DNA of 64,000 nt from Rhytidiadelphus loreus (taxonomy: Eukaryota > Streptophyta > Bryopsida > Hypnales > Hylocomiaceae). The translations under genes were made by a program, and so were the position numbers. Location of the stretch: NCBI GenBank assembly GCA_947034895.1, contig OX344762.1:52307087-52371086 (forward strand), in the 5' to 3' direction. This document shows, in pieces, positions 8,188 through 30,216 of the stretch (positions are counted from its first letter, which is position 1; each line of letters starts with the position of its first letter). The notes beneath the pieces were generated by a model. That model saw nothing but the letters and a program-made list of their open reading frames with translations, was not told where the DNA came from and ran no database searches.

Positions 8188-8235
8188 CAGGGTTGTCTTG
8201 TCTGACATATTTTTGGGTTTAGGCGTCATGTATGA

Positions 8236-8300
8236 CATCTGACGTCGCGTGTCGCATGTCACGAAGTGTCGAGTTTACTTGACATCACGTCGCGGAGGGG
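8236..8300. repeat. hAT left subterminal ACGTCGCG motifs
   Basis: The sequence holds CTGACGTCGCGTGTCGCATG and CATCACGTCGCGG. The same core occurs near the right end, as expected for transposase binding sites close to hAT termini. Function is inferred. Confidence 0.55.
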
Positions 8301-8374
8301 TAAAAAAATTTACCCCATGGTAAATAGATTTTGCCTACGTGGCAGGGCTTCGGAACTGACGTGGACAGCCAGCA

Positions 8375-8730
8375 TGGGCGACTGCGGGTGTGGGCGCGTG
8401 CAGGTCTGCCTTGGGCAACCTCGGGTGGAAAAATTGAGGCGACTACGGGTGAAGGGGCGACTGCGGGTCTAGGGCGCTAGGGCGACTTCGGGTGAAGGGG
8501 CGACCTCGGGTGGAAAAAATAGAGGCGACTGCGGGTTTAGGCTTGAAGGCGACTGCGGGTGAGTGGGTGACTGCGGGTTAGGGGCTTTAGGGCGACTTTG
8601 GGTGAAGGGGCGACCGCGGCTTCGGGTACTGAGGGTGACCGCGGGTCCGACAGGTAGGGGCGACTACGGGTTTCAGGGCGACTGCAGGTCGGAGCAGCAG
8701 ACAGCGACCGCGTGTTCCAGGGCTACCGCA
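8375..8730 (+). repeat. GCGACTGCGGGT cluster 1 (left end of hAT)
   Basis: Degenerate copies of GGGCGACTGCGGGTC, mostly in plus orientation, are spaced irregularly by 10-40 bp of G-rich sequence. It lies between the left terminus and the 3' end of the transposase gene, so here it is a terminal cluster rather than a promoter-proximal one. Confidence 0.8.
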
Positions 8731-9254
8731 GGTTCAGTTTAGGATTTGAGTTTGGCATATTCAGTCTTTGAAGTAACACGTCACATAGGTGTTTTATAAG
8801 CGCAGAATTAGGTGCTACGTTATATTGGGGTTTACAATTTACAAGTGCAAATAATAGAGCCCATGAAATGTAAATTGGACAAACTTCTCTAATCCCAAAA
8901 ATTCACCCAGTATAAGGCCACAATAATAATGTCAACAATGATTATATTAATAAGTCATCGATATTGCTTTCCGGCGGACTTCAAATGTAGCCATACTTGC
9001 ATTGCACTTTTATAACCTCGTTGCAGTCATCACCTAACTGCCTACCAATTAGAACTCAACATATATTTTAAAACCGGTAATCTGTCCCTCACTCTAATAT
9101 GCTCATATGCTTGATGAAGCATTACAAAATCCTTACACATCAGGATGAAGGCTCAAATCTTGAACTACAAAGATTTGCTACCTAACATATAAGCTAAAAC
9201 CTTATAACTATAATTATAACTATAACTATAATTATTGTCTACTTCTCTAGTACT
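8731..9254. other. AT-rich spacer 3' of the hAT transposase
   Basis: No coding frame is visible. The short TA-rich run around 9205-9237 (repeats of CTATAATTATAA) is low complexity. This would be the transposase 3' untranslated and terminator region. Confidence 0.4.
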
Positions 9255-10214
9255 CTAGTCACCAGGCGTGAATGTGGAATCGCTCGGCACCTCATCAGCA
9301 TTAGGGTCTGTATCTTCGTAAGACTCTTCGTTGCTCCTGTTGTCGCCCGAGCTTTCGATTTCATCATCTTCCCTTGTTACTACTTCAATTTGTACCTCAC
9401 GCTCTACCTCTGAGTTCAGATTTCGAACTTCTGTATCTACACCACTGAACCCTTCAGTTTGCACAAGTCGTTTCGTGAGCCTCAACGCATCCGTAGTTCC
9501 ATCCATGTTGGATGCAGGGTGTCGCCCTCCTCTACTTGATTGTCCAACATTCTGGGTGGAACATCCCGCTCCAATGGTACACCGTTGGACAATTTGAGTG
9601 GGTCGTTTAGGATTTCGAGGTCCCCTCTCGTCAACCCTCCTAATATGGCTTTTTTGGCCTCTACTGTTGCGCCCCTGGATTCCTAATGATGATTCGCCAG
9701 GGCCAGACACGGATGAAGGTTGAGTGGGTTGTGGAGCTGAGCCGTGAACCTCTTCATCAATCGTCCATAGAGCACCTCCACGCACCGGTGGCCTTGTTGG
9801 AAGGGTTGGGGTAGACCTCCTCACTGTTGCCACATTTGTAGTCGTCTCTGGATTCAACGGCACATTCCGACTTCGATTCATAACATATGCCAATGGCACA
9901 TCATCATCATCATCTGTAGTAACAGTTGTTCCAAGGGTAGATGCGTTCAATACAACGGGATTTGGTATTCCCTCGTGTACAACTTCATTGACTTCGATGG
10001 CCTCTTTTTCATGTTTGCTTCTCATTGAAACTTGTGCACTGCTTCTTAAATTGCGGGCCATATTTGGAGGCGAACTAGTTGATATTAGAGATCTAGCTTC
10101 TTCCTCTACGGGTGCCATGGGAATAGGTACGCCTTCGTCGTTGTTGTCGGGGGTGCTTTCCCTCCTCAGTGATGCATGTGCCGGCGAAATTGCATCCATA
10201 TTGTGCACGACGTT
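9255..10214 (-). CDS. Open reading-frame extension after the TAG of the hAT transposase
   Basis: Directly after the TAG at 10217-10215 the same frame stays open for 319 codons to a stop at 9255. The sequence is rich in Ser, Thr, Pro, Arg and Asp/Glu, with a run DDDDD near codon 100 and an acidic tail (EESYEDTDPNADEVPSD). It has no recognised domain, looks disordered and may be a C-terminal tail of the transposase. A 319-codon frame is unlikely by chance, which suggests the TAG is a later mutation or a readthrough point. An intron removing the TAG is a third option. The first ATG after the TAG is at about 10199, but I would not call it an independent gene. Confidence 0.5.
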   Translation of the reverse strand, partial: NVVHNMDAISPAHASLRRESTPDNNDEGVPIPMAPVEEEARSLISTSSPPNMARNLRSSAQVSMRSKHEKEAIEVNEVVHEGIPNPVVLNASTLGTTVTTDDDDDVPLAYVMNRSRNVPLNPETTTNVATVRRSTPTLPTRPPVRGGALWTIDEEVHGSAPQPTQPSSVSGPGESSLGIQGRNSRGQKSHIRRVDERGPRNPKRPTQIVQRCTIGAGCSTQNVGQSSRGGRHPASNMDGTTDALRLTKRLVQTEGFSGVDTEVRNLNSEVEREVQIEVVTREDDEIESSGDNRSNEESYEDTDPNADEVPSDSTFTPGD

Positions 10215-12535
10215 CTACGGTGGACTGCGTACAGGTGAATTTCCAGGAGAAACATACCCATCGTCACTAAAATCAAATGTATTCCCGTATATTGGTCGTG
10301 GAGGACTATGTGGCGGCCTAACCATTGCATTCCAAGGATTATTGCGCAACCAATCCTCTTCATCCCTGCGGTTCTCGCGTTCTCTCATAAAATCTGGAAC
10401 AACGTCGTCTTCTTCCCCTGAAGACAAAGGCCCATCACGCTCGTCCTCATCGTTTCCATCTGCAAGCATCTGGTCGTAAAAAATGGCTGGGTTGTGTCCA
10501 CGTTTTTGACGTTCAAGTTTGCTGTTCGCGTAGATATACACCAATGTCTCTGCCTTTGTCGTGGCCAAGCGGTTTCGCACTTTATTGTGCACAAAGGAAT
10601 ACATGCTCCAATTCCTTTCACACGAAGATGCAGAGCACGTCAAACCGAGAATTCGCTTTGCAATTTTTGGAAGAGCATTGCCCCCCACACGATTCCACCA
10701 TTGATGAGGCAATAATTGACATTCAATGATATCGGGAGCCTCATGTAAAGGATTGAATGCACCTGTCTTCTCTTCAAATTGAGTTAGCTCCTGCATTGCT
10801 TCCACCACTGACACGTTCAATGGTACGCTCAGTTTTCGTATGACTCGATTCAAAGCTCCCTTCGCGTAGCCATTGTTATGAATAGCCTCCACATCACTCA
10901 AGTATGGATTTAGTAGTGCCCCCGCATAGTGTAGGTCAGTGATCATCAACTTCCAGCGAGCATCAAATTGTTTCTCATATCGTGTTGCCACCACTGGATC
11001 AAGGAAAAATGGAGCATTCTTGAGAGAATAAATGTGCTCCTTCAAGGCTGTCATCATTACTAAAGCTTTCGGCATTTCCGGGACTTTTCCATCAAAATGA
11101 TGAAGACAAAGCAGCACAAGCTCTACCATATGGAGGAAATTGTCGCACTGAACCCAGAACTCTTCTGAACGGATATCTTGCCTTGCAAGTTTGGCCTTGC
11201 CTTGCAAGTTTGGCCTTGCCTTGCAAGTTTGGCCTTGCCTATAATGAAATGTCCATTTCTGCGGTTTTGCAAACTCAACTCGAACGTCATATATGTCTCA
11301 TCCAGTGTCACATTGTGCACTGCTTGCTTGCAGTCTACCAAACGATCAATCATCAAGAAATTTGTGGCAAAACGTGTTTTGCTTGGAAGTCTCAACACTT
11401 TGTTTGGTGAAAATCTCCGAAACAACGCCAAAGTATGTTGGTATTTCTTGATGAACTTCACAATTGATGAAGCCTTTTTTACCAACTCCTTTACTTTCTG
11501 ATCCTTTCCCCAGTCTTCTAAGAGTAAGTCCAAAATGTGTGCCGCACAACCTTGCCTATAAATGTGAGGGTACCTTTCTTCCAACCTTGCCATCGCCCCC
11601 GTCATGACTGCAGCATTGTCCATACACAATTGCACAACGTTGGTAGGCCCAACTTCCTCAATGTATCGTGCCATCGTCTCAGTCGTGTAAGATATATCCT
11701 TCTTCTTCCCAGTACTATCCACTGATCCCAAAAAGACATCCCCGGCGGGACACACCAACATCATATTTAGTAATGGCCGCGAATTAGTATCGGACCAACC
11801 ATCTGAACAAATTATCGCTCCATACTGACTTATTGAAACCCTCGTCCGCTCCGAGACCATGGCTTCAACCGATGCCTTCTTAACATCTATCATTTTTGTG
11901 CGAATCGCATTATACGGTGGCGGTTGGTACACGAATCCAACTGCTGCAGTTTGTTTAACAGCATTCACGAAGGCCGGGTGGCGCACAACATTAAATGAAA
12001 TGTTTGCCTTGTAAAAGAAAGAAGCCCACAACCTATCCAACTCTTGTCTGCGGCCCGTCTGTAATGATTCATCCATGCTTTTTTGCCGAGAAACAGATGG
12101 CATGTTCCTCCTTCTCTCAAGTGTTGTTCCAGTAGAATCTACTGAATCAGGCGTAGGATTTGGTCTTGCATTTGATTCAAAGGGATTGAGAGACCCTTCT
12201 TCTTCGACATCCAACGCAGGTGCGACAATAGACTCTGCAACATTAACTGGTGCATCATGTCTAGCCGGTGCATCATACATCTCTTCGTAACTCATGGACC
12301 TTGGAACTTGCCCCTCGCCAGTCTGAAACTTTTCTCGTACAATTCTAGGGATCTCCTTACAACGCTCCGATGTAGTCGAGCCGCCATAGCCAAAGTGAAT
12401 CAATGCTCTCTTTCGTACAAATGCTTTGCTCCACCCACAAAACACGCATTTTCGAGCATGGGGGAAATTATCAATTGGGGTACACGGTACTAGCCAAGGG
12501 TCCCAATCCTTTGTGGACCTTCGCGTATCATTCAT
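10215..12535 (-). pseudogene. hAT transposase (BED finger, DUF659, hATC), frameshifted
   Basis: It starts at ATG 12535 (MNDTRRSTKDWDPW). A BED-type zinc finger follows: KCVFCGWSKAFVRKRALIHF then C..IP. The RNase-H-like core shows IICSDGWSDTNSRP and VQLCMDNAAVMTGA (putative catalytic Asp residues) and GCAAHILDLLLEDW, typical of DUF659/hAT. The second part has the hATC dimerisation domain with ILGLTCSASSCERNWS (the Glu completes the DDE set) and NRLATTKAETLVYIYAN. The two parts are in different frames. The break lies in three 19-bp repeats at 11183-11239. With one copy the frame is continuous (GKAKLARQDIRSEEFW); two extra copies add 38 bp and shift it. The gene would have supplied transposition of this element; as written it is inactive. 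A 15-bp-motif cluster lies about 285 bp upstream. Confidence 0.85.
11183..11239 (-). repeat. 19-bp tandem repeat x3 that frameshifts the transposase
   Basis: Minus-strand unit GGCAAGGCCAAACTTGCAA occurs three times with no differences, followed by GGCAAG and then the conserved coding sequence. The lack of divergence between copies implies recent expansion. Confidence 0.9.
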
Positions 12536-12818
12536 GGTCCCCCCCCCTCCCAACACCTTGTCCAGCCATGTAGTAGATCAACACTAGGTCTTCAAAGAAA
12601 ATGACTACAATAATCACACTAATACTATGGAAGATGTAATGACAAAGCAACCCGCTTAGAGTGGTCTTGTAAACCCTTCTAAACACGGTTGTTGCCCTCC
12701 GAAGAAGTTAAACGTCCGCATGAAGCCTCTTTCGAAGGTCCAAGACAAGAGTTTTATCAACGGAGCCAAGGTGATAAAACAAGGGGTACCCCTAGAACTT
12801 TATACAAGAAAACTCCTT

Positions 12819-13152
12819 GGACCCGCGGTCGCCCCATGAGAGAATGCGGGTCCAAAAACCTGAAATCAGTCAGGTGATGGGCGACTACGGGTCCAAGATT
12901 GGGCGACAGCGGGTCCAAGATTGGGCGACTGCGGATCCAGGAGTGGGCGACTGCGGGTCCAGGAGTGGGCGACTGCGGGTCCAGGAGTGGGCGACTGCGG
13001 GTCCAGAAGTGGGCGCCACGGGTCCAGTAATGGGCGACTGCAGGTCCAGAAACAGGCGACTGCGGGTCAGGAACGGGCGACTGCGGGTCCAGTAATGGGC
13101 GACTGCGGGTCCAAAAATAGGCGACTGCGGGTCCAGGAACGGGCGACTGCCA
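12819..13152 (+). repeat. GCGACTGCGGGT cluster 2 (upstream of hAT transposase)
   Basis: After one inverted copy (ACCCGCGGTCGCCCC at about 12820) the unit GGGCGACTGCGGGTCCAG repeats with a period near 18-22 bp in plus orientation. It is the most regular of the seven clusters. It lies between the transposase start (12535, minus strand) and the 3' end of the next gene. Confidence 0.9.
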
Positions 13153-13627
13153 TTTGTTTGGATAATTCTTGCATCCCCTGGGGTAATTTGGGGCCTATAA
13201 TTGAAACTATGAATTCAGAATTTCCACAAAAAAAATAAGCCTTGAAAATAAAAAATTCTAGTGTTTGCCCTGGAGTGGCAATAAGTAGGTCAATTCACCC
13301 TAGCCATGACAATTGCTCTGAACTTCAATAACAAGTTCTTTTCCAATCCGGCAAGTTTTTAATTTTCCTTTTTTTTTAATTCTCTTTTAATTCCGAAAGT
13401 CCGAACTCCCAAGGTCATTTTCCTGCCAAAATTCCTAGAATATTCAAGTATTCACAACATTGCAAACATAAATAACCAAAAATTCATATCTATATTTATG
13501 TACTCTTGTCAAGGAACTACATAGAATTCAATGTGCTTGCATTGGAATGTTCAAAATGGATAATATCCTTTTATATATACATAAGATGGAATATACATAG
13601 TCCTCAAAAATGTGCTAAAAATGAAAA
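13153..13627. other. AT-rich spacer
   Basis: No gene is visible. This is the probable 3' untranslated region of the minus-strand gene that ends at 13628. Confidence 0.4.
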
Positions 13628-15235
13628 TCATTCAACATCCATTTTGGCCTTTTCTTTGCGGTCATGAGCCTCACGTTCCATCTCATACAAGACTTTCCTA
13701 CCTTCCAACTGCAAAATCCTAAGGTATCGATCATCCTTCCCCAACTTCTTTTCCAACCAAAATTGCTTGTATGATTTTTGGAACTTCAAAACCGCCTTCA
13801 GTGCATCCCGATGTTCTTCCAATTTTGGATCCAATGACAAAGAAACCCCAAGCTTCTTTTTCAAGTCAACTACTTCCGTAAGAGACAATGCTTGTTTAGT
13901 AGCCACGTCTTTCCAACCACACATTTCTGCAACACGGTCAAGGGGGGCTTTGTCCTTTAATGCTTTCAAGGAATTTAATCTTGATTGTGCTTCTTCCACC
14001 CCTCGCTTCTCCAAGTCTATCTGATCTTCCTCCAGCTTGCATGCTTCCATAATTTTGGCAAGCCGTGATTTCGCAAACTCATTGCTAGAAGAACTAGATC
14101 CTCCAGCATGCCGAGAAGAGAATCTAAGGTAAAATGCTTCCAAGTCTAAAATCTTTGTTATTTGCGTTGACAAAAGAACTTGCCGACTTTCAAGTTCAGC
14201 ACGTAAGCTATTTACAATATCTCCACTCAAAGTTTGCGTTTCTTGATTGCGAAGCTTCTCACATTCTAGATGCTTTTCATCCAACTCATTTAGAAGCTTC
14301 TTGAGTTGAGCTTTGTAAACAACTTTGGTGTCCAACATTACTGTGTCAGGGACAGTTCTATCTTCAACAAATTCCTCACTTCGGTACATGTCATCAACAC
14401 AATCCAATTGGAACAAAGAAGGCTTCACATCTTCTTCTGTTTCCATCTCTGTCCAAAAAACATCATCTTCTGCTTCTTGCATGCATGCAAGCACATACTG
14501 CAAAACTTCGTCTTCTTCAGTGCAAGGGACTGTAATCGGATTCACCATAGCAAGAGGCAAAATATCGAGATTTTGTGGTTGCCTAGCTGGTTCACCCTCT
14601 TCTTCCATTCTCGGGGGAGGTAAATTTTGTGAAGTAGAAGCCACCATCGCCATGTTTTGGGGCTGCATTGGAGGGTCTTCACCAAGGTTGTCTTCCTCTC
14701 CCGAAGATGAATCAGATGACGTCCAATGAAACTGCTCATCGGGCACTCCCTCCTTCAAGTTTTTCTTCTGGCCTAGCCCTTCACGTGGATTGGCAGAAAG
14801 AGCTGCCCTTGGGATGTCTTTTGTCGGTGGAAGGCGAGTATGCTTCACTCCCTTGATTGAACTCCAATCCACGCTTCGAAACAAAATGAGTTCCGTATAC
14901 ACCATTGCACATATGAAATACGGGACTTCGTTCATGGGCACTGAATATGTGCCATACAAGTATCGATAAATTTCGATACAACGTTGCACAAATGCATCAT
15001 TACGGCATGGATGCAAATTGGCCGTATTATTGCGCCGATTCATGTAGTGCCGATGATAGGGGAATAACTTGTCGATGTGGCACCACCCCACGAAGGACTT
15101 ACAAGTCTTGGCGGTCCAGTGGCCCGTAATTCGATTCCAACCTCGGTAGGCCACACACGCTGGGTCCAAAAGGATGCGTTGTTGCCTAGGGTGCATGGCT
15201 CCTTTTGCCTTGGTCTTCTTCTTGTGGTCCGCCAT
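13628..15235 (-). CDS. hAT cargo protein with W/C/H-rich N-terminal domain and coiled coil (paralogue 1)
   Basis: This is a 535-residue open frame from ATG 15235 (MADHKKKTKAKGAMHPRQQR). The alternative start further upstream is not ATG. Residues about 30-135 form a conserved domain shared with two other genes in the same element: Trp-Asn, then Trp, then SFVGWCHIDKLFPYHRHYMN, NNTANLHPC, a Phe-x2-Arg-Cys helix and VDWSSIKG. Its Trp/Cys/His/Asn spacing could suit a metal or nucleic-acid site, but this is inference. An acidic linker (SSDSSSGEED) follows at about residue 180, then a long heptad-like region (about 325-535) rich in Leu, Lys and Glu, probably a coiled coil. There is no signal peptide or membrane helix. 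I do not recognise the family. A 15-bp-motif cluster begins about 230 bp upstream. It is intact, unlike its neighbours. Confidence 0.65.
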   Translation of the reverse strand: MADHKKKTKAKGAMHPRQQRILLDPACVAYRGWNRITGHWTAKTCKSFVGWCHIDKLFPYHRHYMNRRNNTANLHPCRNDAFVQRCIEIYRYLYGTYSVPMNEVPYFICAMVYTELILFRSVDWSSIKGVKHTRLPPTKDIPRAALSANPREGLGQKKNLKEGVPDEQFHWTSSDSSSGEEDNLGEDPPMQPQNMAMVASTSQNLPPPRMEEEGEPARQPQNLDILPLAMVNPITVPCTEEDEVLQYVLACMQEAEDDVFWTEMETEEDVKPSLFQLDCVDDMYRSEEFVEDRTVPDTVMLDTKVVYKAQLKKLLNELDEKHLECEKLRNQETQTLSGDIVNSLRAELESRQVLLSTQITKILDLEAFYLRFSSRHAGGSSSSSNEFAKSRLAKIMEACKLEEDQIDLEKRGVEEAQSRLNSLKALKDKAPLDRVAEMCGWKDVATKQALSLTEVVDLKKKLGVSLSLDPKLEEHRDALKAVLKFQKSYKQFWLEKKLGKDDRYLRILQLEGRKVLYEMEREAHDRKEKAKMDVE

Positions 15236-15465
15236 TGGAGATGCTCTTGAGATTTGGGGCAAGGAATCTAAACTTAACCCTAAACCGCAAAGTATTATCT
15301 AGCGATTAGTGAGTGATGGAGTAAAATCAAGAACATGAGCTACATGTAAGTGAAACTCAAAACCCAAGCTCCCGGGCACGCAATCAGCCACTGTAAAGTA
15401 GGTGAAAGGCAGTACGCAGCAAGAAGGGAAAGTGGCGAAGTCGAGTGGGGAGACAGCTAATTAAT

Positions 15466-15765
15466 CCGCAATCGCCCTGGGGCGAGTGCGGGAAGGGGCG
15501 CGTGCAGGTCTGAGAGCGACTGCGGGTAGGGCGACTGCGGGTCTAAGGGGCCGACTGCGAAGGCGACTGCGGGTAGGGCGACTGCGGGTCTGGGGCTACT
15601 GGGGATGGGCGACCGCGGGTCGATGGCTATAGAAGTACTGGGGTCCTGCGCGACTACGGATAGGGCGACTGCGGGTCTGGGGCTACTGGGGATGGGCGAC
15701 CGCGTGTGGAGCACCACAGAGTAATTTCTGGACCCCTACAGTGGGGCGACTGTGGGTACAGGGCG
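15466..15765 (+). repeat. GCGACTGCGGGT cluster 3 (upstream of cargo paralogue 1)
   Basis: Copies of GGGCGACTGCGGGTCT alternate with GGGGCTACTGGGGATGGGCG. An approximately 90-bp block appears twice (about 15565-15630 and 15660-15720), so the cluster grows by local tandem duplication. Confidence 0.85.
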
Positions 15766-17022
15766 GGATTTTGAATTTCTGAACCTCTAAGACTTTCACT
15801 TTGAAGTTCTCTTACACAAAATTGTGGACATAAATTTTAGTTACCAATGCACTTCATAAAAATGTATTGCACCTTTTCATCTTTTATTTAAAAATTTGGG
15901 TTATGCATCTTTAGCCATTTTATTAATTATTGTTGCAACTTATTAGATTTGACATGCAAAAAGAGGATTCCCACCCTAACATCACTTCTGCAATTTCAAT
16001 AAGAAAATAATCAAACATAAGAAATTTACCATCCATGATTCACATGGTTGCGTTTTATTTTCCAATGCAATCTCTATTATGTTTAGTTTGAATTTGTATG
16101 GTGAATCCATTGTAAAACAAGATCCAACTATGAAGAATGTGGAATTCTTGATCAATGTAGACCACTTTCGGAGAGCTCCAAAAGAAGGGGTTTGGGAATT
16201 GAGGGATAAATACCTTTTATTCATTTATGGTCAAGTGTGATTGACACATTATAAATTGCGTGAGAGAACAAAACTCAATATAATCAATTATACAATGCAT
16301 AGGATAGGTGTAGTAAGATGGTTGTTCAAATATCTCATAAGGATTGGGTGTGACAGCATGAGCTCCCATATAACTTTCATCATGTGCTTCATCAAGCACC
16401 GTGAAGGTGTAGTTGGGAACTAATTGTCACAATTAATTGTCATAGCTATTTCCCAGCTGATTTCATGGTTTTGTTCAAATTTTATTTATCTGTACATTCA
16501 TAGGTATCCAAACAATAAAACTTGTTTCATATTAATTAAAAGTGTAGCCATCATATTTACAAACAAAGGGATTAAATCAAGGGCATACATTTGTACATTT
16601 TCAATATTTGGGGATTTCAAACTTGTGAACCAAGAATAACAAGCCACAACATTTATGGGTATATATTTTATTGGGGGGGTCACATTTATGGGTATATATT
16701 TTTTGGGAGGGGTCACATATGTAAACCATTAAAGTATTGGGCACTAATCAATTAAACATTCATATACCATGGACTGTTTAGCAAAATATGATCATCCATC
16801 TGAGATAAACAATCCATGCATTGTTTAGCAAAATCATAGTATAGAAATGTAAAATGAAGTTCTTTGTCAAGCACATTGCTATTTCACATGTCTAGCATGA
16901 CTTTAGTACTATTATCTTCATAAATAACTTATTTCTTTTTATGATCCCAACTCAAAAATCAAAATAGGGTCTTATGCCATGGTACAAGGCTGCCGTTTGA
17001 TGCACCACAACAATGTCTCTAG
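15766..17022. other. AT-rich spacer in hAT
   Basis: No convincing coding sequence. A short direct repeat of TTTATGGGTATATATTTT occurs at about 16650 and 16686. Confidence 0.4.
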
Positions 17023-18338: not shown

Positions 18339-18520
18339 TATCCTAAACTAATGGAAAAGATTTTGGGTTCATTGAAGTATACAAGAAGTGTCTGCTGTAT
18401 TGTTGGCTGTTTGTGGGAAACCAAAAAAACCACGAGACCTCCACAACATTGGGCCCACATTCAGCCACTACAAGGCGCAGTTATGAAAATTATGGACCAC
18501 AGGCTGGAACAGCCCATGAA

Positions 18521-19091
18521 ATACCCGCGGTCGCCAGGGGCGCATGCGCTAACCCTAACACGGATACTAGGGCGACAGCGCATGGGGCGACTGCGCGTGG
18601 GGTGACCGCGGGTCCGGTCCAAGGATCCCTCGCGTCTTTCAAGGGCGACCTCGGGTCCTCGAGGGGGAAACACATTTCAAAATCCCCCCTCCATCAGGGC
18701 AACTGCGCATAGGGGGCGACTGCGGGTCAAGGAGAAAATGCAAACTCCTTGACCCGCAGTCGCCCCCTACGCGCAGTCGCCCATATGGAAGGGGAGGGAG
18801 ACACCAAATACTTTTCCGCCCTCTATCAGGGTGACTGCGCGTAGGGGGCGACTGCAGGTCAAGGTGGGAGACACCAAAAATTTCGAAAATGCAATCTCCC
18901 CCCTTCCATCAGGGCGACTGCGCGTAGGGGGTGACTACGGGTCAAGGTGGGAGACACCAAAAATTTTGAAAATGCAATCTCCCCCCTTCCATCAGGGCGA
19001 CTTCGCGTAGGGGGCGACTGCGGGTCCCCAGATCACTTCCAAAATCAGACCTGGGGTTCTAGGGCGACTGCGCTTTGGGTGACTGTGGGTA
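18521..19091. repeat. GCGACTGCGGGT cluster 4, with inverted copies
   Basis: It contains GGGCGACTGCGGGTC and the variant GGGCGACTGCGCGTAG in pairs. Around 18831-19030 a unit of about 80-95 bp (motif pair plus AAGGTGGGAGACACCAAAAA) is repeated in tandem. It lies between the minus-strand decayed gene and the plus-strand kinase gene. Confidence 0.85.
18697..18782. repeat. Strong hairpin made from inverted 15-bp motifs
   Basis: Arms 18697-18734 and 18745-18782 are nearly perfect inverted complements (core GGCGACTGCGGGTCAAGGAG), separated by a 10-base loop AAAATGCAAA. Confidence 0.85.
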
Positions 19092-19964: not shown

Positions 19965-20461
19965 TTAGGGCGACCTCGGGTCAGGGGCGACCGCGGGTCA
20001 TTGACGAAGCAAAAAACACATTTGAATCGGGGCGACTGCGCGTAGGGGGCGACTGCGGGTCAAGGAGGGAGACTAATATTTTGGAAAATGCAAACTCAAT
20101 CTCCAGTAGGGCGACTGCGCGTAGGGGGCGACTGCGGGTCAAGGAGGGAGACTGATTTTTTGGAAAATGCAAACTCAATCTCCAGTGGGGCGACTGCGCG
20201 TAGGGGGCGACTGCGGGTCGAAGAGACTTCTTTGTGGGCGACCGCATGTGCAAATTTCGGGATGGTTTAGTTGGTACCCGCGGTCGCCCACGATCCGCAG
20301 TCGCCCATTTCAGCGCTCCAAAAACGCGCAGTCGCCCATTCCCGTTGTCTTCAGACCCGCAGTCGCCCCTCCTCAGACCCGTAGTCGCCCCACTTCAGAC
20401 CCGCAGTCGCCCCCTCCTGACCCGCAGTCACCCAAACGCACGCGCCCTGAGGCGACTTGAT
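19965..20461. repeat. GCGACTGCGGGT cluster 5 (upstream of kinase gene)
   Basis: Plus-oriented copies up to about 20222, including three tandem units of about 79 bp (motif pair plus AATGCAAACTCAATCTCCAG), are followed from about 20277 by inverted copies (GACCCGCAGTCGCCCC). It ends about 185 bp before the kinase start codon. Confidence 0.9.
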
Positions 20462-20646
20462 TCGGGTACTTAAGCATTAGCCCCACTTCCGATTCTCACC
20501 TTACTTTAGCCTTGCGCACTGTCTTTCACCTACCTTCAGGTGGCTGGATGCGTGCCCGTGGGCTGGGGTTTCAATTGGGGGGGGAATTTTTACCCTTTCA
20601 ATCTACGAATTTTAAACTACGGTTTTGAATTGTTTTTAAGTACAAC

Positions 20647-22239
20647 ATGGCTTTTCCACATGAAGGCAACACTACAAGGATAAAGTCTTTATGGGATCTG
20701 GACCTCGATGATCCAATTTTTTTCGAGGTTCCGATAGCTGTAAATGAAAACGAAGAAGGAGGGAGTCAAGAGCGACGGAAGGGCAAGAAGCAGAAGTCAG
20801 CACATGACAAGGACTCCAATTATCCTCCCCCAAGTTATACCCGATATGCATACGAAGCGTGTCTCCAGTGGTTCGCAGGGAAAAGTGTACAATTCTTGGA
20901 GGCAAGCTATTTGAGGTGTCCTACAACTGGTAGTGTGGCCTTGCCAAACGATTTACAAGCACGGATTTTAACCAAGCTAAAGGGATCCGATGATTTCGCA
21001 GACATTGACTTGACATATTCTTCGAGACTATTTGAATGGCTTGATAACACATTGAAAGCGGTGATGTTCAATACCAAGAAATTGATGGAGGAACATCGAT
21101 CGTTTCTTCCGATAGTAGAGGAATCAGAAGACATCAAGGCATTCCGCCAAAAAATGGAGTGGTGGTCCAGCGCAGTGAAGAAATTGGCAAGAGGCTCCGC
21201 AAGGGGTTTTAAGTGGAAAAATGCAGCGGTGCAGGCAGCATTTGCACGAGATGGTGGATTGTGTATCACGTGGATCCCCGATACGGCGAAAGTGGTGCCC
21301 CTTAGTGCTTTTGAACGTGAAGGGGGGTATGCAAAAGTGCGTAAGGTACGCATTGAAGGAATGGATACAATTCCAAGCTACATCGCTTTTGCTGGGAAAG
21401 TATCCAAGGCAATAAACCCGCGCGAGGGGAGAGCGCAACGATCCATGGAGGCCTTTGCATGCCCCTTGAACCACCCTGGCATCATTAAGTTTTTTGCCAT
21501 TCATTCTCGTACGAATGAAGCGTACACTTTGTGGTGGAATGGGGGCCATTTGAATGAGTTGAGGCATTTAGATCGTTCTGTATCACCAACCATTGACTGG
21601 CATGAAATGCAAAAAGCCACAAGACTTCCTGAAGAGAAACAAAAAGAACTTGGTCTCTTCCGAAGGCACAAGGCAAAGTTGGCATGGGCTTTAGTATATG
21701 TGACAAATCTCATGCACAAGTGCCGCGTGCTACACAATGACTTGTCTCCCATGAACATCATGTTGCATTTTCCGGATTATTCAAACGACATAATCAACAT
21801 TGGAATTTGTGATTTTGGAATATCAAGTCGTTTTGACGAAAACGCGCCTTCACATTTTGGAAAGCCATCTGAGGCCGAGAGGAATCAATACCGAGAAGGT
21901 CGTTGGTGGGTTGCCCCGGAGTTGTTTTATGCATATGGACCTCCAAATTCCGATACAAGCATACCGATCATGCAACAACGGTATAAATATACGCAACAGT
22001 CAGACTCGTATTCTATTGGGAAGTTGACCGAATGGATGAGAATTGGTGATATGGACGATTGGGACAAGGATTTGTTCAAGAACCGCGAGGGATCAATGTA
22101 CTTTGGAATGAAGTTGCGTGAACTCATGAACACTGACCCAAAGAAGAGACCAACGTGTATAGAGATCACAAATTCCCTTATGTCTCCACCATGGTCCATG
22201 ATGCCCCCCGAATTGGTGTTCCGAGACTCACCTTTGTAA
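20647..22239 (+). CDS. Protein kinase carried by the hAT element
   Basis: This is an intact 530-residue single-exon frame from ATG 20647. Residues 1-210 are a variable region with a basic stretch (RRKGKKQK) near 43-50. The kinase fold occupies about 220-520. A glycine-rich-loop-like EREGGYAKVRKV lies near 223-234. A candidate Lys is in AGKVSK (about 251-254). The catalytic loop is HNDLSPMN with Asp365 and Asn370 (HRD changed to HND). DFG is at 389-391 and APE at 423-425. The alphaF Asp is D453 (SDSYSIG) and the final Arg is in KKRPT near 501. All residues needed for phosphotransfer seem present, so it may be active. Preferred substrate is unknown. Such a gene is not part of the hAT mobility machinery and is best read as captured cargo. 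Cluster 5 lies directly upstream. Confidence 0.75.
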   Translation: MAFPHEGNTTRIKSLWDLDLDDPIFFEVPIAVNENEEGGSQERRKGKKQKSAHDKDSNYPPPSYTRYAYEACLQWFAGKSVQFLEASYLRCPTTGSVALPNDLQARILTKLKGSDDFADIDLTYSSRLFEWLDNTLKAVMFNTKKLMEEHRSFLPIVEESEDIKAFRQKMEWWSSAVKKLARGSARGFKWKNAAVQAAFARDGGLCITWIPDTAKVVPLSAFEREGGYAKVRKVRIEGMDTIPSYIAFAGKVSKAINPREGRAQRSMEAFACPLNHPGIIKFFAIHSRTNEAYTLWWNGGHLNELRHLDRSVSPTIDWHEMQKATRLPEEKQKELGLFRRHKAKLAWALVYVTNLMHKCRVLHNDLSPMNIMLHFPDYSNDIINIGICDFGISSRFDENAPSHFGKPSEAERNQYREGRWWVAPELFYAYGPPNSDTSIPIMQQRYKYTQQSDSYSIGKLTEWMRIGDMDDWDKDLFKNREGSMYFGMKLRELMNTDPKKRPTCIEITNSLMSPPWSMMPPELVFRDSPL

Positions 22240-23996
22240 TAGGATAGTCTAGAGCAAGAGTTTAGTGGTGCAAGCAATGAGCTTGGTGGCCAATTATGTG
22301 TTGCTTACTTTGTAATATTTTCCTATAATATATGAAGGAATTTTATGCTACGCGCCTTGTCTTTAGAAAAACAATTACTCAATGGGCTATTTGTCAAATT
22401 GTATATATTGAATATGGCCTTTTACACATTGTTATGCAAAGTATAACAACTTTTGAATTCAAATGTTCTTGGTCCTTTTTGATTCCGTAGTATATAATGG
22501 ACGCAAGGAAAATAAGAAAATGAAAATAAATTACTTGGTAATTGATGTTGAAGACTTGTATTATTTCTTGAATAAAATGTGCTAGTATGCACTTGAAAGG
22601 AGTTTTACTTTCATGGTCATTGAATTCAAATAGTTGTTTTTTCAATCCCTAAAAAAATGTAAGTCATACATCATTTACATTCTCTTATTATTTTTTCTAT
22701 TTCCAAAAATAAAAGCAAGTTTTTTTTTTTTTCCTATTTATTCTAATTCAAATATAGGAAACATACATTTTAGACTTTTTTAGACTTTTCCTTTTTATTC
22801 GTACTTTACCTATTTCAAAATAGATGAGAGATGTTTTTATTTATTTATTTAACCTTTTTCGCTCTCTTCCTATTTATTTTATTTGGAAAAAGGAAGTTCA
22901 TTGACTTCTTGCGACCCTTTTTTTTTTTTTTGACAATAAAACAAGAGTGGATATTGCAAAAAAGATATGTAGCCATAATCTTTGTCATTTATTAAACACG
23001 CAATTCGAGAAAACTTGGATGAATTCAATAATAAATGTAAATTTGGTTTTACCATATATATTATTCCTAGTAGCATAATGTTTTCCTACCATATTCTTTT
23101 TTTTGGTATATGTCATCCAAATTGATAAAAACACACATTCTTTCATAGATGGTTGGAGTATGATATAAGTCCAACAATGACTTTCATTTATAGATTTGTG
23201 TCCGTACAAGAAATTTAGTTATTAGGCATGTAATTTACCAAAATTAGTGTGTGTAACATAGTATGTAATTTGAGTCTACATCCAAAAATACATAATGAAC
23301 ATCTCATGTCAAAACAATTACAAAGACATTATTGTTACAATTGCAATGGTTAATAATCATAACATTGGTTATTAACAATTGAATTAGTTATTAACAATAA
23401 AATTAGTCAGTAACAATGAAATAAGTCATTTACAATAAAATTAAAAATTAACAATGAAATTAATTAATAAGAAAAAAATTAGTTAACAACAACTTCTTCT
23501 AAAACAATTGCAAAGATTTAACTTCTGTTCAGATAATCAATAAGGAATCCATTTGTACCACAACCGACCTCAACCCTAATGGCTCCCCAAATATAGTATA
23601 AAGTATAAACTAGTATTCCATAAATTTTGCAACACAAATGGGATTGAGCTCACAATCCTTTTTTTTTCCCTTGAGATTTGGTGCTCAAAAGCAACAAAAA
23701 ATTTAGGCTAGCTATAAGCTATAGGAATTTTTTAGGAAAATTTTGGATGAAATTGCTAGAAAAACTTCAACTTCTAGAAAAGTCTTTGATGAAATCGCCA
23801 CAATGTAAATGAAAATAGAATTTTAGATACTTAGTATTACATTTTCTATCTAGTACGTGGATGAATGTTGAAGCTTGGAGCCCCTCCGTAACATTTAGTA
23901 TCGCCACTTTCCCAGTGCAAGGAAAAATGGAAAAAAATATCACAATCTATAAACATGTACTAAGAAAGAAAAGAAAAGTCCATGCATTAATAGATG
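22240..23996. other. AT-rich spacer with poly-T tracts
   Basis: No gene is visible. The first 150 bases are probably the kinase 3' untranslated region. The remainder is low-complexity AT-rich DNA with T-runs and a degenerate AACAATxAAATTAGT repeat around 23350-23480. Confidence 0.4.
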
Positions 23997-24140
23997 GACC
24001 CGCGGTCGCCTAGGACCCGAGGTCGCCCAGGACCCGCTGTCGCCCAGGACCCGCGGTCGCCTTCGCAAAGTGGACCCGTGGTCGTCCTGGACCCGCGGTC
24101 ACCTAGGATCCGCAATCGCCCTGGACCCAAAGTCGCCCTT
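23997..24140 (-). repeat. GCGACTGCGGGT cluster 6 (abuts cargo paralogue 2)
   Basis: About eight inverted copies (GGACCCGCGGTCGCC and variants) with a period near 18 bp end at the first recognisable codons of the following gene. Confidence 0.85.
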
Positions 24141-25375
24141 TGCACGTGAAGTCTAATAAGGCAAATTTGGCTTACTGCAAGAGTGTTGTCTTCCAGCGAA
24201 GGTGTTTGGAGGTATGGCAACAACTCTATTTGGAGTCCCAGCCTTATCGAAATGACAACTTCTCTTTCTATCTTGTGCAAATGGTGTACGTTGAAGTTCA
24301 ATTGAAGAAAAAGGTAGATTGGACAACCTTGAAGGAGCTTTCTATCGGTGACCGCCCGGACAGACCGATAGTGCTAGATGAAGAAGGACTTCTTCAAGCA
24401 AATCAGAAGCTTTTAGAGTCAAAGCCTGGCAAGTTGGCTGTTGGTGATGACCAAGTTCAATGGTCTTCAACTTCTAGCTCAGATGAGCACACTCACGAAT
24501 ACGATGGATATTCTTTTGAGAGTGACGACGAAGACATTGACAAAGAAAAACAAGAGGCGGCTGAAGACGTTCAAGTTGACAAGAAGGGAAAGAGGAAGCT
24601 TGAGGAGCCGCAATCATTGTCCAAGATTCAAAAACAAAGCTTAGATGTTCATGTACCGATCAATGTGGACCGTTCTGGGGCAGACATTGGGTCTAGCGGA
24701 AGCAGTGACAATGATTCGGAAGACAATTTGGAGATGTTGGGCACTAAGATCGAAAGTGCACGAGCAGCTTTGACTTCAACAGTAGCGGATCTTATGAATT
24801 TGAAAGAGAAGGTACAACATCTTCCAGTGAATCCAACTGTTGTGGATGGGTTGAAGAAGGAGTTAGAGGCGACTGAAAACGCCATTGCTGAAAATGAGAA
24901 GATTTACTCTAAGTTAAACAAAAGTAGAATAAATTATTTCAAGAAGATCAAAGACGGGCGAGCACACATTTCCGATGATTTAGCGGTGCTTCAAAATAAA
25001 CTTGATCTTTTGCAACGTGATAAATGGTCCCATCAAAGCGAAAGGAGAAGCTTGAATCTTCAAATACGTGAGCTAGAGATGGAATATTATGATGATGCCT
25101 TAAAAGAAGCCAAAAAAGAGGGCATCTTGGCTTTAGCTCCGGATTATGGTAGCAATACAGAAGAAAGAGCAACGCTTTTTTATTTGGTGAAGCTACTGGA
25201 GAAAAAACAAGAGTTGTTGCACGAGGGCATATTGGACTTGGAGCGCCACATCCTTTATTTTAAGGAATGGCGCAAGTGGGCCTATGAAGGCATAGGTGCC
25301 ACCCGTGCGGAACTTCAAAGAATGAGACCGGAGCCCAAAGAAAGTGACTTTGTGAATAGTGAAAAAAATGCTTAG
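24140..25375 (+). CDS. hAT cargo coiled-coil protein, 5'-truncated (paralogue 2)
   Basis: The frame from about 24140 to the TAG at 25375 begins inside the shared domain: SNKANLAYC, RRCLEVWQQLY and KKVDWTTLKE align with paralogues 1 and 3. The first part of that domain (WCHI..FP..RHH) is missing, and the 15-bp-motif cluster sits exactly at the break. No ATG precedes the conserved part; the first in-frame ATG is at 24281. An acidic Ser-rich linker (SSTSSSDEHTHEYD) follows, then a Lys/Glu-rich segment and a long coiled-coil-like region (from about codon 190 to the end). It is either a truncated gene still translated from 24281 or a pseudogene. Function is unknown. Confidence 0.55.
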   Translation: MHVKSNKANLAYCKSVVFQRRCLEVWQQLYLESQPYRNDNFSFYLVQMVYVEVQLKKKVDWTTLKELSIGDRPDRPIVLDEEGLLQANQKLLESKPGKLAVGDDQVQWSSTSSSDEHTHEYDGYSFESDDEDIDKEKQEAAEDVQVDKKGKRKLEEPQSLSKIQKQSLDVHVPINVDRSGADIGSSGSSDNDSEDNLEMLGTKIESARAALTSTVADLMNLKEKVQHLPVNPTVVDGLKKELEATENAIAENEKIYSKLNKSRINYFKKIKDGRAHISDDLAVLQNKLDLLQRDKWSHQSERRSLNLQIRELEMEYYDDALKEAKKEGILALAPDYGSNTEERATLFYLVKLLEKKQELLHEGILDLERHILYFKEWRKWAYEGIGATRAELQRMRPEPKESDFVNSEKNA

Positions 25376-27047
25376 TGGTTGGATCTAGTGTAGTAGAAAA
25401 AAACAATTTGGCCTTCCAATTTTTGATTTTCCAAAGGTTTTGTGGAATAAAGAAATTCACACCTTTGTTTTTGAAATGTACATATGTTTTTATTATATTT
25501 TGAATACAAGGGCTATGAATTTGGTGTCTTTGCAAGAATGGATGTCAGAGATGGTACCTACGGGCTGAAATTTGGGACTGAATTTTTGAAACTTTATTTG
25601 AAGATAGAAAAAACAATTACCTTTGTGGTAATATAACTTTTTTTCCAATCAGTGCCCGGGAACAAAAGTTATGCCCATATAGTCCAAACTCCAAAGCAGG
25701 GGAGAATGGGCAGCAAAAAAATGTGACAAGCATTTGAATTTATTTTTTTAAGTTTTTTTCCCTCATAGATTATAATTTTGTCTATCCGGAAAGCTTTTTT
25801 TCATTTCATTTGGATATTTTATGAGAAAGTTATGGACAATCTTGTTTATTGGGCAATTAGAGCTTCTGGTGGGAAAAATACCTTGTAAGATTAATTTAGG
25901 AACGCAATTTTGGCAATTGTTCAAGAAAAGAAGTTTGACATGGTTTAGTTTGCTTGCAACAACAATTTGACTGTGGGGATTAGTGCATTTTAATTCTATC
26001 TTAGAAAGAGAATAGATTTTCATTCAATCTCATATGTACTTCTATTCTACAAGTTTTTTAAGAATGAAAATTAAGTTTTTTTGAAAACTTTTTATTTATT
26101 TAGACTCTCAACTCAATTCTCCACTATATTTGTTTAAAGCTCAAAACTCTGTAGTGCAAGAAATTAAAGTGAAAAATGTTAAAAGTCAAATAATGTAGTC
26201 TAGCAATGTGCTGAAAAAATTGTTTTTTTCACTCTAAATGTGGATATCTTGCAATCTGTAAGATGAAAAATTCTGAAATTTTTTCCACACATTCTCATAC
26301 TAGTAAGGTGTAAGATCCTATGGTTATGTGTGGGAAAAAAACAATTTTCAAAAACAATTTTGGATACTTTAAGAAATTGTTGAGTAGAAGTAGGTAAGAT
26401 GTAGTTGTAAAATTTAAATAATGAATATCTCTAAAATGAAATGAAAATGGTGAGAGTGTGCTATCAAGTGAAGTTAACTATGTGACCGGACCTAATTTTT
26501 TTTTAGATTGTAGAAATTGCCTGGAGAAACAAATCCTACAAGCAACTTTTAAAAGAAGAAGCTATAGATTCAAGTTGCCCGCCAAACAAAATGGTCCATA
26601 ACTTTCTCATAAAAAATCTGAATGGAATGAATCAAATTTTTCCATGTAAACAAAAACATGTTGTATGAGAAAAAAATCCAAAAGGAAAAAATTCATTAAA
26701 AGATTTGAAGATAGCAATTTTGTGGGGACTGTGTATGGAATCATTGTGCGAGGCATTACAACAAATGTATTTGCATTTCACCAATTACATTTTAGGCTAC
26801 AAATGTATAAGTATGCCCAAACCTTCAAAACCAAAGCAATAGAAGGTTGTTGTCCATAAGCATAGTAGTACAATACACAGCCAAGGCGGTATAGTTTTAG
26901 AAGCCAACATCTTAACCCTAACTTTTGCTAGAGTACTACATTGTGCGAGTATGGATATACTATGGCCCTTATACTATGGGCCTTACATCTTGTATACTAC
27001 TATGATTAACTAGAACCACCGTTGAAGTAAGTATCTCATAGAAATAT
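25376..27047. other. AT-rich spacer with a dispersed repeat
   Basis: No gene is visible. The segment 26060-26345 matches 50140-50420 in reverse complement (for example GTGTAAGATCCTATGGTTAT here, and CATAGGATCTTACAC there), so both are copies of one repeat family. Confidence 0.5.
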
Positions 27048-29360
27048 TTAGTTCAAGTCCATTGGATTGTTCTGAGAACCACTCGTTGCACCTTGTTCAT
27101 AATCATTGGACTCTCCAACAACGAGTTTCTTCTTAGCACGAGTCCTTGAAGCAGGTCCATCTGCTTCTAAAATAGATTCCAAGACATTGGAGTTCTTGAG
27201 AGCTTCAAGTGTCCTTTTAGTTTGCGGAGAGTGTAACTCCAATAGATAATCGAGTGCTTGGCTTTGATAATAAGGCCCGTATGTTGAGTCGAGGTAAGCC
27301 ATACTATTCAAGTCTTCTGGAGTGGCATTTTCATCACGATTAGCCCCTTGTTCACCTTCAAAATTCCAACGGTGTCCTTCCGGATGAGCACCCCACTTGA
27401 AGGTTTGGGATGTCTTATCAAAATATCCACCAAGGCATTGAAAAAAAAACGCCCTCTTCCCTGCATTGTGAGTTCCTTTTCCCATAAGGTTGAATGCCAC
27501 TCTTAGAATTTCACGCGGGTCCGTTTCCCAATTCAATTGTGAGGCAGCAACTCCCATTTCTTGATCATGTAGGCCTTCTGGCCAACTCCAAAGCAAGTCT
27601 CGTCCCCAAAATCGTGTCTCTGCCGTCGTGTCTCTATTGTGTTCCCAAGAAGGTGGCATGTAAGTCATCAAGTTGAACATGGTATACAAGCGATCATGGA
27701 ATGGTGCTGCACAAATCACACGTCGTCGTCTAATCAGACATTGAGTGATGAGACACTGAGGATGGTATACATGTGTACATGATCCAAGTGCCCATCCTCC
27801 TTCTGGCCCAAATTGTTCTAGACATATGGGACATTTGGTATGATCCAAGACGAAATGAGCTGGCTTTGGCCACAATAGACTTTGGTCTTTTTCGTTGAAG
27901 TGACTAGACATCTGATTTCCATGGTCCCAACCATTTTGTGCCCAGTCTATGACATTTTTTTCCACCACGTCAAGCATGGACATGTTATCCGGAAACATGT
28001 CCTCCATCAATGCCCATGATGTCAATCCATTCTCTTGTTTAGGGGCATTTGCTACAAAGTTCTTCGAAACTTTGTCTAGCTCTTTCGCAACTTGTTGAGA
28101 TCGATCCACGGAGAGAATGCACGCGACCTTCCAATGATAGTATGTCGCTGCCAACACTACCAACTTCTCTCGAAGCATTCTATTTTCCTCAGCCAAATCA
28201 AGTTCCTTTGATGATTGTAGATGTGGAATGGCAGGAAACGAAAGTGAATCCTGAGTCCCTTGCAAACCATCAACGTGCGGATTGCTAGAATCTCTTGAGA
28301 CGAACGGAAGTGGTGCCATTGGAAGAATTGAAGAACGCTTCGTACGCTTGGCAGGGGGAGAAAGGTGAATGACATCGCTGGTGAGGTCCCCAACAAGCTT
28401 GTCCAAGTGATGTGGATCCTGCTCAACAAAGGTTTCGTCCATGTCCGACAATGTGAAAGTCTGACGCTCTTTTTCTCGAAGGCCTTGTAATTCTTTGGAT
28501 TGTTGAGAAATGAGAGCATTTTTTTGTTCACATGTAGACCGCCATTTCTTCACATCACCTTCTAAGGTTGCAATTTGTACATCCTTGGTCTTCAAGAGGT
28601 CGAGAGCCTTCGCCAACGTCATCGCATTGTGAACAACATTAGATTCAGACTGTGGAATGGGAATGTGACTTGTGGCACATACGAGCGAGTCGTCACTTAA
28701 AGCAAAGTCGAAGACGTTGCTGGCGTCTTGTGGTGGCAAGATTGGAGTCGCAATTGTGATTGAGGCTGATGCCAATCTAATTTTCGTGGTGGACCGTTGC
28801 ACCTTGGCAGGATGTTTCATCTTTTTTCCCCGCGATGATGAAGCGGCTTGAACATTTGGATCTGGAACTGGAACTGGAACTGGAACTTGGACGGGGGTGA
28901 TAATCTGCTCCTTCACTCGTACAAGCTTAGGAATCCGTGTGCCATCTGAATCATTATCCTCTTCTGATCCTTCTGTGTCCACCTCTTGAGTTTCTTTGTT
29001 TTGTGGATCACTTCGAAAAGGCCCAAGTCCACCCTCCGGAAATTTCAGAACCCCTCTTGGAATTATTCCAACTTCTGGACGCTCCACGTAGGTACTTTCT
29101 TTGATCGTGGTCCAGTCAACTTGTTTGTTCAAGGCGACCTCAGCATAGGCACCTCTAGCAATGAACAAAGGGGCCTCATTCCTATCTACAAAAGGGGTTT
29201 TGTAGAGGACCTGCCACAATTCTAAACACCTTCGTATGAAAGCAGGATTTTCACAATACTTCAAATTTGCCTTGTTATTGTGTCGGTTGTGATGATGGCG
29301 CCATGCCGGAAAGAACTTCCCGATGTGACACCATTCAATGTAGTCTTCGCACACCTGCAT
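27048..29360 (-). CDS. hAT cargo protein with shared N-domain, coiled coil and RING-like finger (paralogue 3)
   Basis: This is a 770-residue frame from ATG 29360 (MQVCEDYIEWCHIGKFFPAW). The shared domain continues with HHHNRHNNKANLKYC, RRCLELWQ and VDWTTIKES. An acidic linker follows at about 125-140, a VPVPVPVP run near 160, a likely coiled coil at 250-300 and a basic patch PPAKRTKR near 335. A RING-type finger lies at about 510-555: C510 P I C513, C528 T H530, H533, C536 and C550. The last ligand expected two residues after C550 is Pro, so the site is incomplete or atypical. RING proteins usually act as ubiquitin ligases; activity here is uncertain. Upstream, the same frame stays open to 29579 except for TAGs at 29366-29364 and 29387-29385. 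Both align with Trp codons of paralogue 1, so the original N-terminus was longer and is now cut off. Confidence 0.65.
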   Translation of the reverse strand: MQVCEDYIEWCHIGKFFPAWRHHHNRHNNKANLKYCENPAFIRRCLELWQVLYKTPFVDRNEAPLFIARGAYAEVALNKQVDWTTIKESTYVERPEVGIIPRGVLKFPEGGLGPFRSDPQNKETQEVDTEGSEEDNDSDGTRIPKLVRVKEQIITPVQVPVPVPVPDPNVQAASSSRGKKMKHPAKVQRSTTKIRLASASITIATPILPPQDASNVFDFALSDDSLVCATSHIPIPQSESNVVHNAMTLAKALDLLKTKDVQIATLEGDVKKWRSTCEQKNALISQQSKELQGLREKERQTFTLSDMDETFVEQDPHHLDKLVGDLTSDVIHLSPPAKRTKRSSILPMAPLPFVSRDSSNPHVDGLQGTQDSLSFPAIPHLQSSKELDLAEENRMLREKLVVLAATYYHWKVACILSVDRSQQVAKELDKVSKNFVANAPKQENGLTSWALMEDMFPDNMSMLDVVEKNVIDWAQNGWDHGNQMSSHFNEKDQSLLWPKPAHFVLDHTKCPICLEQFGPEGGWALGSCTHVYHPQCLITQCLIRRRRVICAAPFHDRLYTMFNLMTYMPPSWEHNRDTTAETRFWGRDLLWSWPEGLHDQEMGVAASQLNWETDPREILRVAFNLMGKGTHNAGKRAFFFQCLGGYFDKTSQTFKWGAHPEGHRWNFEGEQGANRDENATPEDLNSMAYLDSTYGPYYQSQALDYLLELHSPQTKRTLEALKNSNVLESILEADGPASRTRAKKKLVVGESNDYEQGATSGSQNNPMDLN

Positions 29361-29717
29361 ACTCTAAGGCTCTGGCTCCTCGTTCTACTCTTTGAAAGCT
29401 AGGTGGTTATCATTGTTCAACACATGCCATCGCTTCTTGTGAATGTTACCCCTCCTTTTTCTAGTCTTGTCTTTGGCAGCCTTCCTAATTGCACCAGGAG
29501 TGCGTATAGTGGAAAAACCCGGAAGGGACCCATCACTGCTACCTCCAGTTGCTATGAGATTTGCGGACGTCGCAAAATTCTAAGAACCAAATGATAGCAA
29601 AAAATAGTATATATATTATCCAAAAGGGTCACGCATGCAGCCAACAAAGGTTGCAAGACAGAAAGCCTCAATGGAAAATGAAGGTGATAGCATGATGATG
29701 GGCTACTGGCTATATAG

Positions 29718-30055
29718 GGCGAGTGACTTCGATCTAGGGGGGCGAGTACGGATAGGGCAACTGCGTATCCAGCGACTGCGGGTCTGGGTAGGGCGACAGC
29801 GAGTCTCGAGAGGGCGACAGCGGGTCCAAATTGAGCGACTTCGGGTCCACCACCGGGTCTAGGTACCTTTTGCGCACCCGCGGTCGCCCACCCAAGAACA
29901 CTTCCTGAACCCGCAGTCTCCCTGCCAAACCCGCAGTTGCCCACCCGCGGTCTCCCTCAGAAATCCGCAGTCGCCCACCCGCAGTCGCCCTCTTCCACCC
30001 GCAGTCGCCCACCCGCAGTCGCCCCTACCCGCACTCTCCTACCCGTACGCGCCCT
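29718..30055. repeat. GCGACTGCGGGT cluster 7 (right end of hAT, upstream of paralogue 3)
   Basis: Plus-oriented copies up to about 29865 are followed by inverted copies (CACCCGCAGTCGCCC) to 30055. It lies both upstream of the RING-like gene and inside the right terminus, mirroring cluster 1 at the left end. Confidence 0.9.
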
Positions 30056-30118
30056 CCAGTTTGCCAAGTGGATGCCATGTGGCATCCACCTGGAGGGGGG
30101 TAATTTCCTGTAAAGTCA

Positions 30119-30216
30119 AAGGTAAATTTGACTTTTCGTGACGTCGCGCGGGCTCTACTAGACGTCGCGCGACGTCTATCTGTCGCGGTGTCGCGCTGTC
30201 GCAGCGAACAACCCTG
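30119..30216. repeat. hAT right subterminal ACGTCGCG motifs and terminus
   Basis: It contains GTGACGTCGCGCG, a palindrome GACGTCGCGCGACGTC, TGTCGCGG and TGTCGCGC within 90 bp of the terminus CGAACAACCCTG. Confidence 0.6.

Follow-up and report, generated by a model that had tools for sequence, protein, structure and literature searches.

Plant cut-and-paste transposons are usually seen as minimal, with a transposase and two ends, and the subterminal repeats of hAT elements are often bound by the transposase. The transposase of VANDAL elements is Mutator-like, and the only long 'hAT' with cargo genes known to us is ToxhAT. In VANDAL elements, according to the available excerpt of PMC5735166, a short motif is densely arrayed in the non-coding parts and is bound by the element's own VANC protein. 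The hAT label of ToxhAT is considered a misclassification by the authors of PMC12506042 (excerpt), with Tc1/mariner as the likely group. Here we analysed a stretch of 64,000 nucleotides from the moss Rhytidiadelphus loreus (GenBank assembly GCA_947034895.1, contig OX344762.1, positions 52,307,087 to 52,371,086 of the forward strand), hereafter the window. Positions 8188-30216 (22,029 bp, with hAT-type ends) are one hAT-type DNA transposon, which was inserted in one piece and is a member of a multi-gene family of recent amplification; the structural part of this statement is near certain. It carries genes for a transposase, a kinase (K) and three related proteins (A, D and G), and these proteins may regulate the element through arrays of one motif, GCGACTGCGGGT (Table 1).

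The termini and the perfect 8-bp target duplication given in an earlier note on this DNA, made from the letters alone, proved exact to the base. The 9-bp terminal inverted repeat CAGGGTTGT occupies 8188-8196 and, in complement, 30208-30216, the 9-mer being found nowhere else in the window, and the 8-bp duplication GCCACAAG abuts both ends (8/8 match). Among the characters that mark hAT elements, we found the 8-bp target-site duplication, a short terminal inverted repeat (9 bp here; the range is 5 to 27 bp as quoted in the excerpt of PMC12506042), and the C-terminal hAT dimerisation region; candidate catalytic-triad residues were located in the transposase frames by eye only. The insertion interrupts an open frame with a NIF-type phosphatase domain (Pfam), which lies on the minus strand at 30225-31786 and to the left of 8180, and which is open for 594 codons when rejoined with one GCCACAAG. 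This flanking-gene stretch had 46 genomic matches at 64-100% identity (40 of 101 candidates were scored). All five flank loci excised from the best-matching places aligned across the site without the element and with a single GCCACAAG (92.9-99.5% identity over ~1.6 kb). Because these five related sites of the same genome are empty with one GCCACAAG, the 22,029 bp were inserted as a single unit. The interrupted phosphatase-like gene is a repeat as well: an inverted copy with 99.5% identity lies ~9 kb beyond the left edge of the window. The gene may be part of another large mobile element.

Further copies were searched for in the 407-Mb assembly, which has 489 contigs, including five large ones. 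A contig of 115 kb carries psaA and psaB, and the best scores of psaB were with the PDB chains 8htu, 6l35 and 7ksq (1700-1704 bits vs 1663 for the next), which are from the moss Physcomitrium patens and point to a moss as host. Allowing up to 3 mismatches, the left-end 30-mer was found at 677 places genome-wide and the right-end 33-mer at 306 (reversed-pattern controls, 0 each), and the 33-base signatures of the kinase and the transposase were found at 274 and 266 places, respectively (controls, 0 each); the left-end matches include companion elements with other interiors. The matches listed (125 left ends, 123 right ends, 81 kinase, 78 A and 58 RING matches) were paired by ordered chaining, which gave 30 left-to-right end pairs, namely 14 of 22.0-23.3 kb, 4 of 25.8-26.4 kb, 1 of 45 kb and 11 of 5.3-16.4 kb. 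In 29 of the 30 pairs, at least 7 of the 8 flanking bases are the same on both sides; 11 of the 30 are short elements. By script, 28 pairs (those other than the window copy and a second copy on contig C1) gave 24 perfect 8-bp duplications and 2 at 7 of 8; a 23,322-bp element, whose end begins CAAGG, has ATGATTGT on both sides as read by hand, and a 22,596-bp element with non-matching flanks is the one exception. None of 756 mismatched flank pairs, used as a control, reached 7 of 8.

Kinase DNA is present in 14/14 elements of 22.0-23.3 kb (8 by listed matches and 6 by fetched sequence, two of these six having the kinase only partly inside the fetched stretch), and A, kinase and RING genes occur together in at least two end pairs among the matches listed. 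The second copy, at C1:34996691, has flanks matching at 7 of 8 and is colinear with the window copy over nearly its whole length, mostly at 97-98% identity. Of the 84 exact kinase matches on contigs C1 and C2, 61 are accompanied within 50 kb by a transposase match in the element orientation (0-1 mismatch), against 0.71 for random positions, and for 46 of the 84 such a partner lies at 9-12.5 kb; the 23 partnerless kinase matches may have lost the transposase or have a partner with more mismatches. If all of the ~270 kinase-bearing copies were full-length (~22 kb), they would take up ~6 Mb (1.5%) of the assembly. Since the ends, the size class and the linked genes recur and one further copy is colinear, the genes move with the element; insertion of the genes separately and later is ruled out by the recurrent end pairs, the kinase-transposase linkage and the empty sites. 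The suggestion of the note is thus borne out for a family of giant multi-gene hAT elements, the other copies of which have ends and genes in common with the window copy, and neither of the findings that it had named as fatal to the idea (no shared boundaries; genes as separate insertions) was made.

The transposase lies near the left end, as the note had it, with DUF659 (Pfam, expectation value (E)=4.6e-35) and the hAT dimerisation region PF05699 (E=1.6e-5, 25.1 bits vs a cut-off of 21.4). A perfect 19-bp tandem repeat (3.4 units, 11177-11240) is located at the junction of two transposase frames and may be connected with an intron. BLASTP detected a common N-terminal domain in A, D and G (E = 3e-29, 3e-17 and 3e-13), which is up to ~170 residues long and starts with a basic stretch, and the profile-profile comparison of A with the RING family gave 5.7e-54. 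The claim of three related proteins stands on these comparisons, and that of a RING-like member on the family of G: the RING of the window copy is below the Pfam cut-off, and zf-RING_2 was matched at E<=0.01 by 17 of 21 aligned family members (G and 20 of its 25 environmental relatives, the latter at 31-71% identity). Protein A has four environmental relatives (38-43% identity) and no match in Pfam, NCBIfam or PDB. No support was obtained for the decayed multi-exon gene of the note; the seven open frames of 71-121 codons at 15.98-18.71 kb had no credible Pfam match (best E=0.045, below the cut-off), and we count no sixth gene.

The kinase gene of the note was recovered with Pkinase (Pfam, E=7.2e-12), and K has 57 environmental relatives at 27-69% identity; in IMG/VR and GTDB genomes, pattern matches were found of which none was confirmed, the sensitivity being limited. 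In the alignment of K with 31 of the 57 relatives (32 sequences), K252, E269 and D390 are invariant and D366 and N371 are conserved at >=90%. These residues, which we take to represent the catalytic lysine, the glutamate, and the loop and metal-site aspartates, are those looked for in a kinase, and all were found. Among the matches listed, 63 of 81 kinase copies are stop-free and 18 have stops. For the 30 copies with the highest protein scores, a set biased towards intact proteins, 100 of 169 changes were non-synonymous or introduced stops, whereas 121.7 would be predicted by the mutation types observed (ratio 0.60; none of 2000 simulations gave so low a value). A second set of 20 copies was taken from places outside the 81 listed. 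The amplification is recent, because the mean pairwise difference of the kinase is only 1.0% in the 30-copy set and 2.6% in the 20-copy set. The conservation of K among its relatives, as far as alignments tell, is stronger evidence of selection than the pattern within the genome.

The GCGACTGCGGGT arrays are tandem repeats. With <=2 mismatches, 89 units are found in the element vs 1 in the other 42 kb of the window, whereas 0.33 are expected in first-order Markov sequences, and only 2 of the 89 lie in the main coding frames (46% of the element). Both the window copy and the second copy have seven array clusters in a conserved order. In the second copy, an array edge precedes the frame start or first ATG by 114 bp for the transposase, 201 bp for A, 180 bp for K, 286 bp for D and 193 bp for G, and such an edge at 114-286 bp from 5/5 gene starts had a probability (P) of 0.00015 in 20,000 random placements in non-coding DNA. 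The interval between the convergent D and G has no array. Three unlike short elements with related ends have units near the left end and inside. This placement makes a control or anti-silencing circuit encoded by the element more plausible, as judged from motif positions.

We propose that the element may be a self-regulated multi-gene hAT; this is the best reading, and we hold it evenly poised between right and wrong. The transposase would cut and paste the element, and the GCGACTGCGGGT arrays, both those at the ends and those shortly before the genes, would be bound by element proteins, the likeliest binders being A, D and G, with their common basic N-terminal domain, or the transposase itself. 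End recognition and the expression of all five genes would be coupled under one control. As the enzymes of this circuit, the kinase and the RING protein would modify or remove proteins of the element or (silencing) proteins of the host, and A, D and G would act like VANC anti-silencing proteins without being members of the VANC family. Several observations weigh against this proposal. The complete five-gene set was read in two copies only, and the window copy has shorter frames for D (422 codons vs 501 in the second copy) and G (771 vs 843 in many other copies) and one changed cysteine in the RING (~27720-27722; RRRRVIC vs RRRCVIC in the second copy and the relatives). One of the arrays has no assigned gene, and the right-end array is counted twice, as an end and as the G promoter. 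The 20-copy kinase set includes 17 copies with stops and gives a ratio of 0.83 (p=0.11) over all variants; the pattern fits a mobile gene that is selected in multiplying copies and decays elsewhere, with modest support from within the genome. The transposase alone could also be the array binder.

The last point is the core of a different explanation, namely a giant hAT with passengers, in which the transposase alone binds the arrays, as hAT transposases do with subterminal repeats, and the four other genes were acquired from the host and travel with the element because its ends are still functional. The stops in many kinase copies, both listed and other, and the neutral singletons of the 20-copy set (0.94, p=0.39) are as expected for passengers, whereas the shared variants of the same set are constrained (0.60, p=0.03), the kinase and the transposase occur in similar numbers, relatives of the kinase, RING and A families exist elsewhere, and every gene has its own upstream array, which is not expected of passengers; we regard the explanation as unlikely. 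The note had called the further genes cargo. The element is indeed multi-gene, but this word is probably wrong, because the kinase and the transposase are near-equal in number and mostly linked and because the kinase, RING and A have relatives elsewhere; the genes look more like element genes than captured passengers. It is also conceivable, though unlikely, that the genes serve the host or the element without any array binding, for example with the RING protein and the kinase modifying the transposase or the choice of target, and that the arrays are enhancers or a by-product of tandem duplication. Tandem repeats can spread by slippage and both proteins are protein-modification enzymes, but the D-G interval and nearly all coding DNA lack arrays, and arrays stand at 5/5 gene starts. 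A chance composite of unrelated insertions between two hAT ends is highly improbable: the flanking gene is itself a repeat, as such a composite might have it, yet the same size class, ends and genes are found at unlinked sites with different duplications, and empty sites exist.

Table 1. Features of the hAT-type element in the window (positions of the window; strand given where assigned)
Feature	Position	Strand	Basis or remark
Target-site duplication GCCACAAG, left copy	8180..8187		single copy in five empty sites
Left terminal inverted repeat CAGGGTTGT, 9 bp	8188..8196	+	30-mer at 677 genomic places
Left-end array, 15 units	8378..8715	+	motif scan
hAT transposase region	9258..12577	-	DUF659 frame 11126-12577, dimerisation-domain frame 10218-11297, long tail frame 9258-10214
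Array upstream of transposase, 13 units	12821..13132		motif scan
Gene A, shared N-terminal domain	13631..15298	-	sequence comparison
Array upstream of A, 11 units	15464..15757		motif scan
Array without assigned gene, 15 units	18523..19090		motif scan
Array upstream of kinase, 15 units	19970..20431		motif scan
Gene K, divergent protein kinase with long N-terminal part	20647..22236	+	Pfam, relatives
Array upstream of D, 7 units (17 in second copy)	23998..24136		motif scan
Gene D, shared N-terminal domain	24107..25372	+	sequence comparison
Gene G, shared N-terminal domain and RING	27051..29363	-	Pfam on family, relatives
Array at right end and upstream of G, 13 units	29772..30038		motif scan
Right terminal inverted repeat, 9 bp	30208..30216	-	33-mer at 306 genomic places
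Target-site duplication GCCACAAG, right copy	30217..30224		single copy in five empty sites

Three of the 11 short end pairs were read, and these have in common only ~240 bp at the left (3/3) and ~215 bp at the right (2/3), at 85-88% identity. Their unlike interiors led us to reject deletion derivatives as their origin; a 10.9-kb short element that holds gene A may be such a derivative. The family has non-autonomous companions of 5.4, 11.4 and 6.5 kb, whose ends are related and whose 8-bp duplications are perfect; they carry the same repeat arrays but differ in their interiors. A second high-copy kinase family came up in a search with the environmental relative P0021, in which 84 of 1189 candidates were scored, at ~40% identity to P0021; almost all of these places have a 552-codon frame, and 63 of the 84 listed are stop-free (for example, G000:C2:55464720-55466180 (+)). 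It has no overlap with the 81 listed kinases of the first family and no consistent nearness to first-family ends, and is perhaps another giant element. Elsewhere in the window, a CACTA-type transposon has left remains at 40482-46240 on the plus strand, with matches to the Transposase-associated domain, Transposase_21, DUF4218 and DUF4216, and a perfect 64-bp inverted repeat with a 22-bp spacer lies at 43843-43992.

No report of a giant or multi-gene hAT in plants or mosses was found in the open-access literature, and excerpts of PMC11583847 and PMC10952607 added nothing more. We tentatively consider it possible that a class of giant hATs exists across mosses, perhaps also in other plants, with conserved kinase, RING and array-binding proteins as a counter-silencing apparatus, and that at least two such families with distantly related kinases were each amplified here. 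Signalling-type enzymes such as a kinase and a RING protein are, to our knowledge, not core genes of any described cut-and-paste transposon, and they would be so here if this is true; we also know of no counterpart of the two in VANDAL elements. A few hundred copies of ~22 kb, with five genes and with one motif placed both at the ends and ahead of every gene, contrast with the minimal view of such transposons. Possible self-regulation of a DNA transposon, or its possible resistance to silencing by the host, can be tested on this defined case, which also brings in gene families with uncharacterised biochemistry. For annotation, it is a warning that hundreds of 'kinase genes' in such a genome are transposon genes.

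Compared with the plant hAT elements Ac/Ds and Tam3, the element has the same 8-bp duplication, short CAGGG-type inverted repeat, hAT dimerisation domain, subterminal repeats and shorter companions with related ends. Unlike these elements, it is 22 kb rather than a few kb long, has four further genes, and has the subterminal repeat also arrayed upstream of each gene. Starship and Teratorn are likewise giant eukaryotic transposons with many genes; according to published abstracts, they are built on a tyrosine recombinase and on a piggyBac-like fusion (180 kb), respectively, and have no hAT ends, and no tyrosine recombinase was matched in Pfam among the element frames scanned here. ToxhAT is also a long transposon with non-mobility cargo that was first called hAT, and differs in being fungal, 14 kb long and single-copy per genome, with a TA duplication and 74-bp inverted repeats (PMC12506042, excerpt). 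The element is not a VANDAL, because its transposase is a hAT transposase (Pfam gives DUF659 and hAT dimerisation only, and no Mutator-like transposase), and it differs further in its motif. With VANDAL elements and VANC, as far as the excerpt of PMC5735166 describes them, it nevertheless shares dense motif arrays in non-coding DNA, partly tandem and upstream of genes, and extra genes beside the transposase.

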